From: an uncultured Opitutaceae bacterium
GTDB lineage: Bacteria; Verrucomicrobiota; Verrucomicrobiia; Opitutales; Opitutaceae
NCBI GenBank assembly: GCA_937902925.1
Contig: CALFNN010000037.1
Coordinates: 62,001-126,000, forward strand
DNA length: 64,000 nucleotides
Direction of reading: 5' to 3'
The position numbers and the translations under genes were made by a program. The first letter of the stretch is position 1. The number at the start of each line of letters is the position of its first letter. Positions 56,305 to 62,684 of the stretch are shown piece by piece. The notes under the pieces were generated by a model. It made no database searches, was not told the origin of the DNA, and saw only the letters and a program-made list of their open reading frames with translations.

Positions 56305-57063
56305 CTAGGCGGCGTAGAAGTTGCCTGCCTCGACCGTCCCCGGCATTATCGCTCGCCGCGCGGTTCTGACATTGAACGAAAACGCCGTGAGGGAATCGCG
56401 GGTCCGCACGCGCAAGACCGAGCCGTGAAAGCGCACGCACATACGGGCGATATAAAGCCCGAGACCAGGGCTGCCGATCTTGCTCGTGTATTTCACGGGG
56501 TGCCCCAGCTCGAAGAGATACGGCATGTGGTCGGCCGGTATCCCGGGGCCGCCGTTGGCCACGGACAACTGCCAGACTTCCTCGCGCACCGGCGAAAGGC
56601 GGACGCGCACCCACGTCCCATGGGCATAGGCAACAGCGTTGCCGATCAGATTGACGAGGGCGTGGCGAATCAGCGTCGGCGAGAACGAGCAATGCATCGC
56701 GGGCGGCATTTCCAGGGCAATCGGCGCCCCGGAAGGCCAGACCCCGGGCTCACGCACGAGGTCGCCGATGAACGTCGACAGGTCCCCGGGCCCGTAGTCA
56801 GCCGCACCGCTTCGCGTCAGGAACAGGAAACGCATCCCCGAGAGCAGCTCGCTCATCCGCTTCACGCCGCCCTGGATGTCGCGCAGGCAGCGCGCACGTT
56901 CCCTGTCGTCCGTTACCGCGGAAAAGACCGAGACGGAAAGCGACACCTGGCAGAGCACATTGGCCAGATCGTGCTGCAAGAGCCCGGGCAGGAGCGCCCG
57001 CTCTTCCGAGAGTTTCCGCTCTTCCTCCAGTGCCTGAAAAAGTGCCTCTTCAAGCGAAGGCAT
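56305..57063 (-). CDS. Cytosolic sensor histidine kinase without sensor or receiver domain
   Basis: A 252-residue kinase with no membrane segment. A short N-terminal coiled helix leads to the phospho-acceptor box LLQHDLANVLCQVSLSV, then the ATPase boxes N (HALVNLIGNAVAYAHG), G1 (VANGGPGIPADH) and G2 (GSPGLGLYIAR). It lacks an extracellular sensor, so it probably receives its signal from a partner protein. The start MPSLEEALFQALEEER at 57063 overlaps the end of the 80-residue protein gene by 14 nt, which implies coupling to that gene and to the YcaO gene before it. The partner regulator could be the LuxR-type protein at 62.0-62.7 kb. Confidence 0.85.
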   Translation of the reverse strand: MPSLEEALFQALEEERKLSEERALLPGLLQHDLANVLCQVSLSVSVFSAVTDDRERARCLRDIQGGVKRMSELLSGMRFLFLTRSGAADYGPGDLSTFIGDLVREPGVWPSGAPIALEMPPAMHCSFSPTLIRHALVNLIGNAVAYAHGTWVRVRLSPVREEVWQLSVANGGPGIPADHMPYLFELGHPVKYTSKIGSPGLGLYIARMCVRFHGSVLRVRTRDSLTAFSFNVRTARRAIMPGTVEAGNFYAA

Positions 57064-57292
57064 GATCCGCCTTGGGGACATAGCGGTAGGCCCCGGGCAG
57101 TCCCCACTTCATCGTTTCCACCGCCTCGAGCATCGCGGGCCGGGAACCCTGCCGGATCGCGAGCATCAGTTCGATGCCGTCGCGCGGGGTGATTCTTTCC
57201 TCCTGGATCGCGGCGCGCAGCGCGGTCAACGCCGCGGTCCGGTCGCCGCGGTTCACGCAGTCACGAATTTGGGTCAAAGTCAGTTGATTCAT
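57050..57292 (-). CDS. 80-residue protein of unknown function between YcaO and kinase genes
   Basis: A small, soluble, probably all-helical protein (MNQLTLTQIRDCVNRGDRT, then ALTALRAAIQEERITPRDGI) with two helical pairs and a C-terminal aromatic stretch (WGLPGAYRYVP). I do not recognise a family. It starts three bases after the YcaO stop and overlaps the kinase start, so it is tightly held between the two. It could be an adaptor passing a signal to the kinase, by analogy with small kinase partners; this is speculation from position. Confidence 0.7.
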   Translation of the reverse strand: MNQLTLTQIRDCVNRGDRTAALTALRAAIQEERITPRDGIELMLAIRQGSRPAMLEAVETMKWGLPGAYRYVPKADHAFA

Positions 57293-57295
57293 AAG

Positions 57296-58180
57296 TCACC
57301 AGAAAAAGAAAGAGCTTTTCGGATCCAGATATTCGCGCGACGGCATCTCGGGCACCACGCGCCACACGGTCGCATACTTCGACCACGGGCCGGGCAGCTC
57401 ACCGTCGAACTGCACGGACCACTCGGCTTCGCGGTGCGGCTTGCGGTCGAACACGCGGCGGAGGAACTCGGCATGGCCTTCCTCGCCGGCAAAATACAGG
57501 CAACGGCGCTCGAAGCAGTTCGGCACCTCGCGGACCACGCTGCGCAGCTTGTAATAGCCGACCACAAACTCGTTGCGGGCCAGTTCCACCGCCGCGCGCG
57601 CCGCCGCGGTGCGAAAGGTCGAGCCCGCCGAGTAACCGTAGCTCACGTGTCCGGCAGCCGACCGGCGGAACAGCAGGGCCACCTCGCCAAACTTCGCGCT
57701 GTGCTCCAGACGAAGCGCGGTGACGCCGAGGAGCGCGTCGCCCACGACGGAAGCGCGCATGTGACCGGACCACCAGGAAATCAAGGCCCAGCGCTCGAGT
57801 GCCTCAAGGTGCGCGCGCTTGCGCGCCTGCGCCTTGAACAACCCGGGGAACGCGGCCATGCCGTTGGTCGAATTATCGACATCGAAGCCGTATCTGGCGG
57901 CATCGTCGCCGTTGGAAAGCGTGTAGAATGCCCAGCGCTCGAGCGCTTCGGAGATCGCCATATGACGCGCGACTTGAGCCGAACCGCTCGCCCCGGTGCC
58001 GTCGGCGTTGCCGTAAACCGACAGCGGGGCCTTACCTTGAATCAGACCGGGCGCCAGATAGGCGTTCGCCTGATGCGCCTGCCGCCCCAGCACATCGATG
58101 GATCCCGACGAGACGCGCTCGATGGGACCTCCGTCAGTCGTGAAGATGTCACGATAGTTGATGGCGGCGAGGCTGAACAC
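57296..58180 (-). CDS. Short YcaO-like protein
   Basis: A 294-residue protein with the main YcaO ATP-binding elements in order: QVARHMAISEALERWAFY (the SxxxExxER-type motif), DNSTNGMAAFPGLFKAQ then HLEALERWALISWW (the second Glu/Arg motif), and GSTFRTAAARAAVELARNEF (the third conserved helix). YcaO enzymes activate peptide backbone amides with ATP to make azolines, thioamides or amidines, or serve in RimO-linked modification. This one is shorter than the usual 400-plus residues, with no partner E1-like or TfuA gene nearby, and ends in a run of aromatics (SSFFFW). The start is GTG at 58180. It follows a 54-residue secreted-peptide gene by 11 bases. Substrate unknown. Confidence 0.75.
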   Translation of the reverse strand: MFSLAAINYRDIFTTDGGPIERVSSGSIDVLGRQAHQANAYLAPGLIQGKAPLSVYGNADGTGASGSAQVARHMAISEALERWAFYTLSNGDDAARYGFDVDNSTNGMAAFPGLFKAQARKRAHLEALERWALISWWSGHMRASVVGDALLGVTALRLEHSAKFGEVALLFRRSAAGHVSYGYSAGSTFRTAAARAAVELARNEFVVGYYKLRSVVREVPNCFERRCLYFAGEEGHAEFLRRVFDRKPHREAEWSVQFDGELPGPWSKYATVWRVVPEMPSREYLDPKSSFFFW

Positions 58181-58191
58181 GGGAAGTGCGA

Positions 58192-58356
58192 TCAGTTTTC
58201 GTTCGTGCCGCAGGGCAATCCGGGACCATCCATGACGGAGCCGGCCGCGCCCTTGGCGTGACCGAGGGTATCGAATCTTTCGGCGGCATGAGTTGCACCC
58301 ACGGCCAGAAACATCGTAGAAAACAAAGCGAGCAGGAGGGAGGATATCTTTTTCAT
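58192..58356 (-). CDS. 54-residue secreted small peptide, first gene of the YcaO operon
   Basis: ATG at 58354-58356 opens a 54-codon frame ending TGA at 58192-58194. It has a textbook Sec signal peptide: KK start, hydrophobic core SLLLALFSTMFLAVGA, and probable cleavage after THA. That leaves about 30 residues beginning AERFDTLGHAKG and ending GLPCGTNEN, with one Cys, one Ser and two Thr. The duplicated purine-rich leader AGGTGAAAGGTGAA directly before ATG gives a good ribosome-binding site, rare in this window. It lies 11 bases before the YcaO-like gene, so co-expression is likely. It may be a secreted signal or a modified peptide precursor; RiPP leaders are not normally Sec signals, so either reading is tentative. 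Confidence 0.75.
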   Translation of the reverse strand: MKKISSLLLALFSTMFLAVGATHAAERFDTLGHAKGAAGSVMDGPGLPCGTNEN

Positions 58357-58405
58357 TTCACCTTTCACCTTACGCCAGTCCCGTTAAGTCTTCTACCGCG
58401 CCGTT

Positions 58406-58443
58406 TACCATTACAGCAGTAATGCACTACCTTTTAAATGGTA
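58406..58443. promoter_or_regulatory. Nested inverted repeats over the hybrid kinase start
   Basis: An outer pair, TACCATT (58406-58412) and AATGGTA (58437-58443), flanks an inner hairpin CATTAC-AGCA-GTAATG (58409-58424) whose right arm contains the ATG of the hybrid kinase gene. The site lies between two divergent signalling operons. It may be an operator for both, or an RNA structure covering the start codon. Confidence 0.45.
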
Positions 58444-61400
58444 TCGTTCTAATCGGGCTTCTTCCGTTCATGCCGGCCACCCCGCTTGGCGCGGCCCCAC
58501 CCGAAGAGGGAATGATCCATGCATCATTCTCTCCAAGTCAATTGCAGGGAGAAACTTACGTCCTTCAGATTGCCCAGTCAAAAGACGGCCAGATCATCGC
58601 AGGCGGAGAAAGAATCGTCTATTACGAGAATAACGAATGGCAGATTGTTTCCGGATTCCGGAAGCCGGCTATCCGCAGTCTGCTGGTCGATGGCACGACC
58701 CTGTGGGTCGCTTCGCTAAATGAAATCGGAAAGATCAAACTTCCGATCGGCGCGGGCAGCCGGTATGAGCGGTTGTCCATTCCGGAAATCGCAAATGCTG
58801 GCGAGTTCTGGCAACTCGCCAAGATTGGCGGTCTACTCATTGCCACCACCAATGAAGAGGTTTGGTTTATCGATCCCGCCAGTCAGACGGCCCGGCATAC
58901 AAAACTTCCGAACAAAAGTCGGTTGATTCTCCTCCCATTTGATGGGCGGGTGTTGGTGGCACAGCCGGGGCGAGGCCTGTGGGAAGTGACCGGAGGCGAA
59001 CTCCAGCCGCTGCCATCGCCACCCTCCGGGACCGGCAATGAGCTTTGGCTTTGGACGGACGGCAACTTTGTGCTGACCGGCCACGCTTTGTATAAACGGG
59101 AAGGCCCGGACTATCGCGTCGTCGCCCAAACCCGCCGTCTGACCGATGAGGGCATCATCACGAGCGCCACCCTCTGGGATAAATATCTCGCCATTTCGAC
59201 TGCTACAAAAGGGCTCGCTCTGATCCAGCTCGACTCCGGGCGCATTACTTACGTTACCCGTGCCTCGGTTCTGCCAACGCTTGCGTTGATGGACGTCTTC
59301 AAGGATCGGGCTGGAAAGCTTTGGATCGGCTCCAGGCAGGGCATCACTGTTTTTGAGCCGCCGCGATTCGGCCACGAAATGACGTTGGAGAATTCACCTA
59401 TAAGCGCTGCCCGAATCGACGGACTTTTTATCAGCTACGAGGATCACGGGGAATACTATCCCGAACACGGGAAGGACGAAACGCTCCCCCGAACTTACGA
59501 AACGATACCCAGTCGCCATGGTCCGATATTCGGCCTGTGGGAAAAAATTCGCGTGGGAGGGAGTGAAATCGATACGATCGGAAATCGGACCGGCACCATG
59601 GTCGAGTTGCCGGACGGCAACCTGCTAACCACGTCGACCGAGAGACTCTATTTCGTCGATGTTGCGGCGGGCAAATCCCGACTGGTGTCAGGACCCGCCG
59701 CGGAAATAACCGGTTTCGCCATCCGCGGCGACACGCTCTGGGCCGCCACGATCGACGGCAACCTCTACCGCGCGCCGACCGCTCCACCGTTTACCTTCGC
59801 CAAGGCGGCCAAGCTCCCCGACTCCAGCGCGGCAAAACTCCACCTGCTCGGCCAGACCCTTGTGGTCGCTTCCGCCGACAGCGTCCGTTTCGGCGAGCAT
59901 TTCCGCGTCGTGGACCATACGGCGGGACTCCACAACCCGTTGCTCGCGTCCACCGACGAGGGCACGTTGTGGCTGCTCGGCGAACAGGCGGGCGAGCAGC
60001 GCCTCGGCCGCCTCGTCTCTTCCGGCGATTCTGTCGGGTGGGAAACCGTCGATGCCAAGGGCCTCCCGCAGTTGTCCGAAACTCATTCGCTCACCGCCAG
60101 CGGGCGCACCCTCACGATTTGCGGCGACAACAAGATCCTCGAACTCGAAACCGGCGCACTCACCGCGACCTACCGCCTCGATCCGCCGCAACTGCAGTTC
60201 TCGATTCGGGACTCACGCGAGGGAGACGCCACGATCCTCGATGCACCCCCGTCCGAACTGGGCGCCGAGCAGAACAGCCTGAGCTTCAGCGGCAGCCTGC
60301 CCTACGACGAATTCGGCGAACGCCCCCGCTTCGAGCGCCGCTTGCTTCCGACGGAGACCGCCTGGATTCCGACCAAGGGCGGCGAGAAGGTCAGCTATCC
60401 CTCGCTCTCACCGCTGACCTACACGCTCGAGGTGCGGGCCACGAACCTCGGCCACGTCGGCCCGGTCGTGTCCCACGTCTTCACCGTGTTGCCGCCGTGG
60501 TATGCCTCGCGCGGCGCGGTCGGCGGCTACGTGTTGCTCGCGGCGCTCGGCTTTTATTTCCTCTATCGCTTCCGCACGCATCAGATTCGCGAGCGCAACC
60601 TGCAACTGGAGCGCACGGTGGAGGAGCGCACGCGCGAGCTCGCCGCCGCCAGCGCCGCCAAGACCGAATTCCTCGCCTCGATGTCGCACGAAATCCGCAA
60701 CCCGATGAACGGCGTCATCGGTCTCGTGAACATCCTCCGCGACGGCGCGGTCGCCCCCAAACAAGCGCACACGCTCAAGCTCCTCCACAGCTGCGCGGAG
60801 CAACTCCGCAGCACGGTCGACGACATCCTCGATTTTTCCAAGATCGAGGCCGGCCGCCTGACGCTCGAGTCGAGTTTTTTCGACCTGCTCGACACCCTCG
60901 AGGCCGCGGCGGCCACCGTCGATCCCACGGGCCGCGCGATCCGTTTTCTCGAGCGGCCGCCGGCGAGTCTTACGCTCCAGGGCGACGCCGCCAAGCTCCG
61001 CCAGATCTTCGCCAACTACCTCAGCAACGCCCTCAAATACGGCGTGCCACCCGAGGCTCGCGTGAGCACGATCCTCACTCCTGCGGAAGGCGGCGTGCAG
61101 CTCACGCTCAGCGTCACCAGCTCGGGGCCCACCATCGACAAGGACACTCTCGACCAGTTCTTCGAGAGCTTCACGCGCGGCACCGAGGCGGTGGAGCGCA
61201 ACATCCACGGCACCGGCCTCGGCCTCGCGATCTGCAAACGCTACGCCCAGGCGATGGGCGGCGATGTCGGCGCCGTCAGCACCAACGGCGAGACCACGTT
61301 CTACCTCAACGTTCCCTTCGAGAAGGTCAGCGCCGCCGCCATCGCGCACCCGGTCGCCGCCCCGCCCTCCACCCTGCCCGCCCGCGCGCTCGCGATCGAG

Positions 61401-62015
61401 GACGAGGACTACAACCGCATCGTCCTCGGCAGCATTCTCGCCAAGATGAACTACACGGTCGACTGGGCCACGACCGGGGTGGAAGCGCTGCGACTGGCGC
61501 GCGAAAACGGCTACGACATCGTGCTGACCGACTACCGCCTGCCCGACACCAACGGCGTCGAGCTCACCAGGCAGATTCTCCGCCTCTGTCCCGACCCGAA
61601 GCCCGCGGTGTTTGCCGTCACGGCTTATTCCACCCGCGAGCGCCGCGACGAGTGCCTGAACGCCGGCATGGCGGGTTTCATCAGCAAACCCATCACGCTC
61701 GAAAAACTTCGCACCACCCTCGCCAGCTGGGGCGACCGCCAGCTCACGACGATTTCGCTCGAGGCCTCCCGCCTCACGCCGCGGCCGCTCGCGCGGATCC
61801 CGACCGAGATCGCGGCGGCGTGGACCGACCTCCGGCAAACGGCCCGGACCGATGCAAAGCAAGCCGCCGAGCTCGCCCATCGGCTGAACAACCTTTGCCG
61901 CGCCCTCGACCACATCGACCTCGCCGAGCAGCTCGAGTTGCTCGAGGGCGTCCTCGAGCGCGGCGAACCCGCGGAAAAACTCATCCAGGCCATCGCGAGT
62001 CTCGTCGACGCCTGA
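58422..62015 (+). CDS. Hybrid sensor histidine kinase with propeller-type periplasmic sensor and receiver
   Basis: A 1,197-residue membrane kinase. A signal peptide (LNGIVLIGLLPFMPATPLGA) leads to a long periplasmic region of repeated short beta units (such as GKLWIGSRQGITVFEPP), as in two-component regulator propellers. A Y_Y_Y-like domain (about 610-690) and one membrane helix (near 705-725) follow. The kinase has SMSHEIRNPMNGVIGL (phospho-His), FANYLSNALKYG (N box) and IHGTGLGLAICKRY (G box). A receiver domain (Asp in YDIVLTDYRLP, Lys in FISKPITLEK) is followed by a possible degenerate Hpt helix (AAELAHRLNNLCRAL). It is divergent from the peptide/YcaO/kinase operon and convergent with a LuxR-type regulator. 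The first 1.3 kb is visibly less GC-rich than the rest. Confidence 0.92.
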   Translation: MHYLLNGIVLIGLLPFMPATPLGAAPPEEGMIHASFSPSQLQGETYVLQIAQSKDGQIIAGGERIVYYENNEWQIVSGFRKPAIRSLLVDGTTLWVASLNEIGKIKLPIGAGSRYERLSIPEIANAGEFWQLAKIGGLLIATTNEEVWFIDPASQTARHTKLPNKSRLILLPFDGRVLVAQPGRGLWEVTGGELQPLPSPPSGTGNELWLWTDGNFVLTGHALYKREGPDYRVVAQTRRLTDEGIITSATLWDKYLAISTATKGLALIQLDSGRITYVTRASVLPTLALMDVFKDRAGKLWIGSRQGITVFEPPRFGHEMTLENSPISAARIDGLFISYEDHGEYYPEHGKDETLPRTYETIPSRHGPIFGLWEKIRVGGSEIDTIGNRTGTMVELPDGNLLTTSTERLYFVDVAAGKSRLVSGPAAEITGFAIRGDTLWAATIDGNLYRAPTAPPFTFAKAAKLPDSSAAKLHLLGQTLVVASADSVRFGEHFRVVDHTAGLHNPLLASTDEGTLWLLGEQAGEQRLGRLVSSGDSVGWETVDAKGLPQLSETHSLTASGRTLTICGDNKILELETGALTATYRLDPPQLQFSIRDSREGDATILDAPPSELGAEQNSLSFSGSLPYDEFGERPRFERRLLPTETAWIPTKGGEKVSYPSLSPLTYTLEVRATNLGHVGPVVSHVFTVLPPWYASRGAVGGYVLLAALGFYFLYRFRTHQIRERNLQLERTVEERTRELAAASAAKTEFLASMSHEIRNPMNGVIGLVNILRDGAVAPKQAHTLKLLHSCAEQLRSTVDDILDFSKIEAGRLTLESSFFDLLDTLEAAAATVDPTGRAIRFLERPPASLTLQGDAAKLRQIFANYLSNALKYGVPPEARVSTILTPAEGGVQLTLSVTSSGPTIDKDTLDQFFESFTRGTEAVERNIHGTGLGLAICKRYAQAMGGDVGAVSTNGETTFYLNVPFEKVSAAAIAHPVAAPPSTLPARALAIEDEDYNRIVLGSILAKMNYTVDWATTGVEALRLARENGYDIVLTDYRLPDTNGVELTRQILRLCPDPKPAVFAVTAYSTRERRDECLNAGMAGFISKPITLEKLRTTLASWGDRQLTTISLEASRLTPRPLARIPTEIAAAWTDLRQTARTDAKQAAELAHRLNNLCRALDHIDLAEQLELLEGVLERGEPAEKLIQAIASLVDA

Positions 62016-62042: not shown

Positions 62043-62684
62043 TCAGCGCAGCCGATCGATCGTGGTGAACCCCGACTTCAGCGCGAATTTCTGCAAGTCC
62101 TGCGCGGTGTGCAGGTCGAGTTTGAGCATCACGTTGCGCTTGTGCGTCAACACGGTCGAGACTCCCAGGCCCAGCGTCGCGGCAATCTCCGCCTCGGTGT
62201 GCCCCGCCCCCAGCAGGCGCAGGAGCTCCTGTTCGCGGTCCGACAGCAGCTTCGTGAAGTTTTCCTGGTCCTGCCCCAATTCCCGCCGTCGTTGCACGAA
62301 CCGGGGACTGAAAAATGCCCCGCCCGCCGCGATCATCTGGATCGCCGTCATCAGCACCTTCGGCTCCTCGTCCTTGTGCACGAAGCCCTGGACAAAACTC
62401 CGGCTCACCCGGTGCACGATGTAATCCTCGCACGACGAGGAGCACAGCAGCACCGGGGCCGATACGCGCGCCTTCGACATTTCGTCGACAAAATCCACGC
62501 CGTCGCCATCCGGCATCCGGATATCCAGCAGCACCAGGTCGACCGTGCGCAGCACTTCCATCCCGGCCCGCACCTCCCCCAGGGTGCCGGCCTCCAGCAC
62601 GACCGTGCCGCCGCAATCCTCCACCAAGAGGCGTCGCAGCATGCTGCGAAACATCAACTGGTCTTCCACCAGCGCGAATTTCAT
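62043..62684 (-). CDS. NarL/LuxR-type DNA-binding response regulator
   Basis: A 213-residue regulator: a receiver domain (acidic pair in MKFALVEDQLMF, phospho-Asp in VDLVLLDIRMPDG, Lys in GFVHKDEEP) and a C-terminal LuxR-type helix-turn-helix (LSDREQELLRLLGAGHTEAE then LGLGVSTVLTHKRNVMLKL). It is the likely output of one or both kinases in this locus; its stop is 27 nt from the hybrid kinase stop. The start MKFALVEDQ at 62684 is the normal receiver N-terminus; an ATG 75 nt upstream would add an unrelated extension. Confidence 0.92.
   Translation of the reverse strand: MKFALVEDQLMFRSMLRRLLVEDCGGTVVLEAGTLGEVRAGMEVLRTVDLVLLDIRMPDGDGVDFVDEMSKARVSAPVLLCSSSCEDYIVHRVSRSFVQGFVHKDEEPKVLMTAIQMIAAGGAFFSPRFVQRRRELGQDQENFTKLLSDREQELLRLLGAGHTEAEIAATLGLGVSTVLTHKRNVMLKLDLHTAQDLQKFALKSGFTTIDRLR

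Follow-up and report, generated by a model that had tools for sequence, protein, structure and literature searches.

Why should a gene for a small peptide with a hydrophobic leader lie directly before a gene for a YcaO-like protein, in a tight operon that also encodes a histidine kinase? The question is raised by four minus-strand genes in a 64,000-nucleotide stretch (here called the window) of contig CALFNN010000037.1 from an uncultured Opitutaceae bacterium. The positions of the four frames, and the spacings of 11, 3 and -14 bases between them, are exactly those given in the first-pass annotation. Comparison with related loci showed that the peptide and YcaO genes belong to a module of wider occurrence, together with a divergent hybrid histidine kinase and, usually, a separate response regulator. 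It is very likely that this conserved module, which joins a ribosomally synthesized and post-translationally modified peptide (RiPP) to a sensor, is real. The biosynthetic half, in which the small gene is a RiPP precursor by its anatomy, is well supported, and the signalling half is plausible. On balance we lean towards the reading that the module makes a YcaO-modified peptide signal, which would be exported, sensed by the divergent kinase and fed back through the regulator. The main features in the window are as follows.

58192..58356, minus strand: precursor peptide of 54 residues; leader of about residues 1-30, hydrophobic, ending AAERFDT; variable tail with the Pro-Cys core PGLPCGTNEN
57296..58180, minus strand: stand-alone YcaO enzyme of 294 residues, GTG start
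58422..62015, plus strand: divergent hybrid histidine kinase with double-propeller sensor, transmembrane helix, HisKA, HATPase and receiver; proposed peptide receptor
62043..62684, minus strand: response regulator with GerE (LuxR/NarL) DNA-binding domain; adjoins the divergent kinase in most loci
58428..58443, without strand: palindrome TACC-N8-GGTA, here TACCTTTTAAATGGTA; proposed regulator site, 87 nt before the peptide start, overlapping the first codons of the divergent kinase

Conservation of the module in Opitutales

The order-level search covered 177 genomes, and the profile searches covered 384 genomes of the class and 387 of the phylum, these samples overlapping. A scan of a named genome collection gave 99 confirmed places, and the locus counts in this text rest on the best 80 of the 99. 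Relatives of the YcaO protein were present in 22 of the 177 genomes, with two copies in the window's own genome, and the profile matches in the class (16 of 384) and in the phylum (14 of 387) all came from the same family or order. The titles of the best 80 loci bear names of the Opitutales type (Opitutus, Lacunisphaera, Cerasicoccus, Coraliomargarita, Didemnitutus and others) or broader names of Verrucomicrobia, and one (L090) reads just "bacterium". The module's hosts form a small soil- and water-dwelling group within this order of the Verrucomicrobiota, and since the pattern scan may overlook distant members, absence of the module outside the Opitutales is unproved.

A short peptide gene with a leader, a YcaO standing alone (about 295-310 residues) and the divergent hybrid kinase made up the constant parts, usually along with the LuxR/NarL-type regulator. 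A kinase like that of the window lay divergently upstream of YcaO in 69 of the 70 loci for which 3 kb or more of upstream sequence was available, the window included, and in 64 of these 70 it was a single open frame of at least 1000 residues starting no more than 620 nt from the YcaO gene. Beyond the kinase, a regulator like that of the window was found in 51 of the 59 loci with at least 5 kb, again including the window. The kinase and regulator, both absent from the first-pass annotation, were more constant partners than the 80-residue protein and the sensorless kinase of the operon, so the four-gene order described there stands as one version of the Opitutales module, in which the latter two genes are clade-limited accessories. 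L090 was the sole exception for the kinase, having YcaO and a leader peptide and no divergent kinase in 8 kb upstream. L023-L026 formed a divergent subgroup, with YcaO proteins of 318-326 residues, peptides bearing SIYC or a similar motif close to the end, and a linked kinase scoring low against the sensor profile. PADLOC gave no match.

The precursor peptide

The precursor gene upstream of YcaO encoded a median of 61 residues (n=74), with a median gap to YcaO of 23 nt. A leader profile matched at this place in 69 of the 76 loci with at least 300 nt upstream, compared with 2 of 9601 open reading frames elsewhere; the two were a second precursor just past the distance limit (L060) and a frame downstream of YcaO in L062. 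Six of the seven loci that the profile missed have a candidate recognized by eye and the other, L125, has none, which brings the loci with a peptide before YcaO to 75 of 76. The profile was seeded with 65 loci chosen by a pattern demanding G, A and D at fixed places, so that conservation at these columns is partly circular and the recall is not independent, whereas the specificity (the two matches among distant frames) is. The profile also missed two of three Coraliomargarita-type peptides, and its negatives are therefore not absolute, above all for the YcaO-less locus L174.

The consensus leader is approximately MK..kR..lG..SsLLLavGf.rAA.rLDP, and the Sec signal character ascribed to the window peptide is plausible as judged from its sequence. 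The leader was kept while the tail varied, often around Pro-Cys. Cys made up 6.1% of post-leader residues, against 0.8% in the leader and 1.3% in YcaO; post-leader Cys was present in 70 of the 74 precursors and PC in 50, and the residue before the last Cys was Pro in 45 of 70. The Cerasicoccus-type peptides have P-C or P-T at this site (PTWPCEV, PSYPCEV, PTFPTEV, PTYPTEV), with PSVGTEI in one relative, and those of the Coraliomargarita type have C-L/M-P-T-V. The exchange of Cys and Thr at one site would fit the tolerance of an azoline-forming enzyme. Eight precursors carried near-identical cores in tandem, namely five in L122, four in L031, three each in L043, L092, L118 and L123 (L043 and L123 being closely related), and two each in L079 and L085. 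Two unlike precursors in tandem before a single YcaO were seen in L060, L061 and L063, and in the last two loci one of the pair had no post-leader Cys.

The small frame, previously unlisted before the first-pass annotation, is conserved and under purifying selection rather than neutral. The window peptide was conserved in eight close relatives (L046-L052 and L093) at 43-56% identity with E at most 2e-7. The ratio of nonsynonymous to synonymous substitution rates (dN/dS), in 15 comparisons of pairs picked by hand rather than all pairs, was 0.05-0.56 for the leader (below 1 in all 13 computable comparisons), 0.12-0.99 for the tail (12 computable) and 0.03-0.16 for YcaO (15). A short precursor with a conserved leader and a variable core, standing beside a modifying enzyme, is the arrangement of a RiPP gene cluster.

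The YcaO enzyme

By Pfam, the first description of the 294-residue protein as YcaO-like is weak: the match to PF02624 (E 7e-5, 22.7 bits) was under the cut-off of 25.7, and the Pfam YcaO scan of the whole own genome missed the protein. The profile of its family had no match among PDB sequences, Foldseek alone gave none at E of 0.001 or lower, and the fold was seen only by structural re-alignment, which bore the assignment out. The AlphaFold2 (AF2) model, from a 78-row alignment, had a predicted local distance difference test score (pLDDT) of 91.7 and a predicted template modelling score (pTM) of 0.90, and the top 14 rows of VIA-align were all YcaO-domain enzymes (Z 9.7-17.6; next row 6.1). Among them were microcin synthetase chain D (17.6), Methanopyrus YcaO (16.8), heterocyclase 4v1v (16.5), E. 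coli YcaO (12.9) and TruD (9.7); microcin synthetase chain D and the heterocyclases are proteins with YcaO domains. Profile comparison with E. coli YcaO gave a probability of 54 and E 1e-4 over columns 104-203.

In the alignment with E. coli YcaO, the reference for the ATP-binding residues, E126/E129/R130 corresponded to E199/E202/R203 and R195/E199 to R286/E290, and by eye E78/E81/R82 corresponded to E75/E78/R79. The seven motif residues E78/E81/R82, E126/E129/R130 and E199 were kept in 76 of the 78 rows, the exceptions being L079, with an atypical precursor, and L125, with no precursor found; the position of R195 was R or K in 71 of 78. The nucleotide-binding residues to which the first-pass annotation tied its assignment thus align at most motif positions, except for the equivalents of E. 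coli N187 and E191.

The protein resembles the stand-alone YcaO enzymes of RiPP pathways (bottromycin type) and the YcaO enzymes forming azolines, amidines and thioamides in its fold, in most motif residues, in the small precursor just upstream and in the Cys/Thr near the core C-terminus. It differs from them in that the family is shorter (about 295-310 residues), has no PxPxP near the C-terminus (in none of the 78 rows within the last 15 residues), stands beside a hydrophobic signal-like leader and is linked to a sensor kinase. TfuA (PF07812) had no match in the own genome, which is 95% complete, and a Methanosarcina control was positive; no ThiF lay beside YcaO, the ThiF matches of the own genome being on C12 and C105 and the YcaO genes on C37 and C74 (a dehydrogenase was not searched for). 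The window YcaO therefore differs from the cyclodehydratases of thiazole/oxazole-modified microcins (TOMMs), which have an adjoining or fused ThiF-like C protein and a PxPxP C-terminus, and from the TfuA-associated thioamidating YcaO enzymes.

The divergent kinase and its sensor

The AF2 model of residues 1-730 of the divergent kinase had a pLDDT of 90.0. The five best VIA-align rows for the sensor were extracellular or periplasmic domains of Bacteroides two-component systems covering nearly the full sensor, with BT4673 at Z 30.0 (at a poor root-mean-square deviation, rmsd, of 17.6), BT4663 at Z 28.8 (rmsd 4.5, 636 residues) and BT3049 at Z 23.3. A double-propeller periplasmic domain, a kinase core and a receiver stand in a single chain, as in the hybrid two-component systems (HTCS) of Bacteroides. 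BT4663, BT4673 and BT3049 have an AraC-type output in the same chain, whereas the output of the window module is a separate LuxR/NarL regulator; and while BT4663 senses heparin fragments according to its entry title, the partners of the window kinase are peptide and YcaO genes.

Comparison of the window kinase with its own genome gave 139 matching stretches, and the best one other than itself was the kinase beside the second YcaO (314 bits; next 214). When the 177 genomes were searched with a sensor profile, scoring at most five candidates per genome, the top 18 were YcaO-linked kinases by a coordinate check. A tree was made of 62 kinases linked to a YcaO and 19 that are not, by a quick method that flagged long branches meeting; on it the label changed four times, against a mean of 17.3 after shuffling, and none of 500 shuffles was as low. 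In none of the 19 YcaO-less relatives did the 4.5 kb on the divergent side contain a leader-profile match or a YcaO (best YcaO-profile E 0.085). Core similarity followed the sensor beyond what YcaO accounted for: partial Mantel tests, which are liberal, gave r 0.153 (20/2000) over 54 loci for core and sensor given YcaO, and r 0.082 (189/2000), which is not zero, for core and YcaO given the sensor. L174 (in G049, which shares a genus code with G033) has a kinase and, by eye, a regulator with no peptide or YcaO seen between them, and is possibly a listener-only locus.

The shared promoter

Of 69 loci, 23 had TACC-N8-GGTA in the 160 nt preceding the peptide start and 36 had the relaxed form TAC-N10-GTA; windows taken from other parts of these loci gave expectations of 0.5 and 0.9, respectively. 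Spacings of N6, N7, N9 and N10 did not occur in any of the 69 loci, and other spacings occurred at most once. The palindrome lay mostly 63-65 or 83-88 nt before the start, positions about two helical turns apart, with outliers at 93-138. In the 64-kb window the motif occurred once (58428-58443), against 0.03 expected. Since the loci are related, the counts are not independent; yet the distant L114, L118 and L040 also have the palindrome, with other centres. In the clade of the window it overlaps the first codons of the kinase, and coding constraint may add to its conservation there. The 16-bp TAC-N10-GTA has the form of the NarL 7-2-7 site, and the regulator at 62043-62684 is of NarL/LuxR type by its GerE domain. 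The same promoter region holds another element, and the bases preceding the peptide ATG are AAGGTGAAAGGTGAA, for which the first-pass annotation claimed a strong ribosome-binding site.

58393..58409, minus strand: second conserved intergenic element GGTAAACGGCGCGGTAG; peptide promoter region, window's clade

The second module of the own genome has the palindrome TACCGGAATTCCGGTA instead. This sequence occurred in the own genome at six exact places, its own module included, and at 12 with up to two mismatches, against 3 in the control. The copies elsewhere in the genome were at L201:6023, L209:1314, L208:3538, 7639 (one mismatch) and 12187, and L210:4179; the first lies 38 nt before a molybdopterin dehydrogenase gene, and the second precedes by 110 nt a pair of frames that look, by eye, kinase-like and then receiver-like. 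The operator pattern GGTAARCGRCGNNRTAG matched the genome once exactly and three times with one mismatch, compared with five matches for the control; as these are no commoner than the control, no regulon was drawn from it. With up to two mismatches, the window palindrome was found in the window and at two places on C103, 22 bp apart, the control giving one match per strand. For the remaining palindrome sites no confident target genes were assigned, and no regulon is claimed.

At L201:9587-9646 (C103:232086-232145 of the own genome) three TACC-N8-GGTA palindromes, the third read from the sequence, stand in tandem with 22-bp spacing, about 470 nt from a row of genes for a P460-like protein, a phosphoesterase and a molybdopterin dehydrogenase. 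The tandem-array pattern was found in one of the 177 genomes, the window's own, and the 22-bp spacing was also seen before the peptide genes of L047 and L052. The array contains a 36-bp perfect palindrome (by eye), so a repeat element is also possible.

Proposed mechanism and its alternatives

In the mechanism that we propose, the small gene would encode a RiPP precursor, and YcaO, using ATP, would modify the backbone amide adjoining the C-terminal Cys (or Thr) of the core, with thiazoline or methyloxazoline as a first guess for the product. With its leader the peptide would reach the periplasm or the exterior and there be trimmed. It would be sensed by the divergent hybrid kinase through its double-propeller domain, and the kinase would pass phosphate to the adjoining NarL-type regulator, which would act on TACC-N8-GGTA in the shared promoter and so close a feedback. 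We infer the chemistry, the export, the peptide as ligand, the binding of the regulator and the direction of regulation. The outline agrees with the modified peptide signal with its own receptor system that the first-pass annotation considered, but the receptor is more likely the divergent double-propeller kinase, present in 69 of 70 loci, than the sensorless kinase, whose close orthologues occur in 5 of 80. We would extend the proposal, tentatively and with some doubt, to a new Gram-negative class of quorum sensing, in which a YcaO-modified, signal-peptide-led pheromone is read by a double-propeller hybrid kinase. Two channels would then be possible per genome, separated by cores, sensors and operator palindromes (TACCTTTTAAATGGTA in the window, TACCGGAATTCCGGTA in the second module), and some channels would be multi-copy from a single precursor. 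The conserved module, the co-inheritance of kinase and YcaO and the promoter palindrome support this indirectly.

Several observations weigh against the signalling mechanism. The strict TACC-N8-GGTA was not present in 46 of the 69 promoters. Most members have a Sec-like leader; on visual inspection, however, several lack a convincing signal-peptidase site, and leaders of the Cerasicoccus type (MKKAIVSILRTVVYNVGFRS...) seem ill suited as signals, so the conserved property may be recognition by YcaO. Neither N187 nor E191 of E. coli has a conserved counterpart: at position 114 the residue is mostly hydrophobic, and position 118 has 49 Q and 11 E among the 78 rows. No constant leader-binding partner or exporter gene was found: apart from the kinase, the regulator and YcaO, no cluster of frames of at least 90 residues was present in more than 6 of 26 loci. 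The one named ligand for the double-propeller fold is a sugar (heparin for BT4663, by the entry title). The YcaO-linked kinases of G003, G084, G147, G055 and G157 ranked below unlinked ones in the sensor search, the unlinked kinases L174, L177 and L183 fell among the linked ones in the tree, and the Mantel effect between core and sensor is small.

The hypervariable cores and multi-core precursors would suit a weapon as well, and stand-alone YcaO enzymes of antibiotic pathways are known from bottromycin (PMC4603692). The peptide might then be a modified, bacteriocin-like antimicrobial, with the kinase and regulator only controlling production or self-protection, as in autoinduced lantibiotics. 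We consider this unlikely: what constantly accompanies the peptide is a sensor kinase, the clustered neighbours (not all of which were domain-scanned) included no constant gene for immunity, export or proteolysis, and L174 keeps the kinase and, by eye, a regulator with neither peptide nor YcaO seen between the two. A RiPP that binds metal or buffers stress through its Cys residues, similar to the bufferins, with the kinase sensing the loaded peptide or the stress, appears still less probable. Cys pairs spaced by 1-4 residues are indeed common (46 of 74 tails; CxxPC in 24 of 74), and signal-peptide leaders were shown for bufferins (PMC12452194), but the tails of the window peptide and of the eight peptides closest to it contain one Cys each, Thr can replace Cys in the Cerasicoccus-type peptides, and the tails vary far more than expected of a metal site.

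The first-pass annotation had also considered a YcaO fold that serves as a sensor controlling the kinase. Such a non-catalytic sensor or adaptor, with the peptide as an ordinary secreted protein, would be in keeping with the two lost motif positions and with the co-directional kinase-type gene found after YcaO in the window and in 18 of 70 loci. It is disfavoured and seems to us very improbable, because the seven other motif residues are intact in 76 of 78 rows and the peptides are hypervariable and multi-core; the near-identical tandem cores and the peptide gene before YcaO in nearly all loci also speak against it.

Relation to known systems

Judged from its genes, the YcaO-modified peptide signal proposed here is likely a new kind of bacterial chemical signalling. 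In the Agr and ComX systems of peptide quorum sensing, a modified ribosomal peptide, its modifying enzyme, a kinase and a regulator are encoded in one locus. The window module differs from them in its enzyme, its receptor fold and its Gram-negative hosts, and its signalling role is a proposed one. YcaO peptide chemistry has been met chiefly in antibiotics, besides a few protein modifications; hybrid kinases of the double-propeller kind are familiar as sugar sensors. If true, the proposal would join these two fields, which have hardly any contact, and would give the Verrucomicrobiota a peptide signalling system. Also gained would be a short enzyme that, with no leader-binding partner of the customary kind, modifies a substrate led by a signal peptide, together with naturally occurring pairs of receptor and ligand whose cores vary.

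Signal-peptide leaders are rare among bacterial RiPPs, and Sec use in the native host has been shown experimentally only for bufferins, according to PMC12452194. The bufferins and oxazolins, RiPPs of the multinuclear non-heme iron-dependent oxidative (MNIO) enzymes with Sec signal peptides, share with the window family the signal-peptide-like leader and the Cys-containing core (same source); they differ in that YcaO replaces the MNIO enzyme and the constant neighbour is a sensor kinase (a DUF2063 partner was not searched for). No described system with the set of peptide, YcaO and kinase was found in the literature searched, which left subscription journals mostly outside, and its novelty is provisional. 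The accessible parts of PMC10352776, PMC13063428, PMC5589413, PMC8120280, PMC4603692, PMC12452194 and PMC7794033 do not describe it, and the sole mention of Opitutus in that part of PMC7794033 is as a training genome.

Accessory genes after YcaO

Two further genes complete the operon in the window.

57050..57292, minus strand: 80-residue accessory protein, limited to the closest clade
56305..57063, minus strand: soluble histidine kinase of 252 residues with HATPase_c and without sensor domain; accessory

The 80-residue protein was found in the window and in 6 of the 80 loci, one of them weak (L059, E 0.004), and visual inspection of L054 and L056 showed a related protein of 74 residues. The matches to Phr, HrpV and DUF1801 that the small proteins gave were far under the cut-off, and these identities were rejected. 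Close orthologues of the sensorless kinase were present in L046, L048, L049, L051 and L052. L047 and L050, whose YcaO identities are 86 and 82%, have neither the 80-residue protein nor the sensorless kinase after YcaO. In the window kinase Pfam found HATPase_c and no sensor domain, as first described; there was no match to the HisKA model, and an H-box-like HDLAN was seen by eye. More distant kinases, at about 30% identity, follow YcaO in L054, L055, L056, L059, L066 and L094. Among the 18 co-directional kinase-type genes after YcaO, which do not include the window's own kinase, the seven checked with Pfam all had a HATPase domain.

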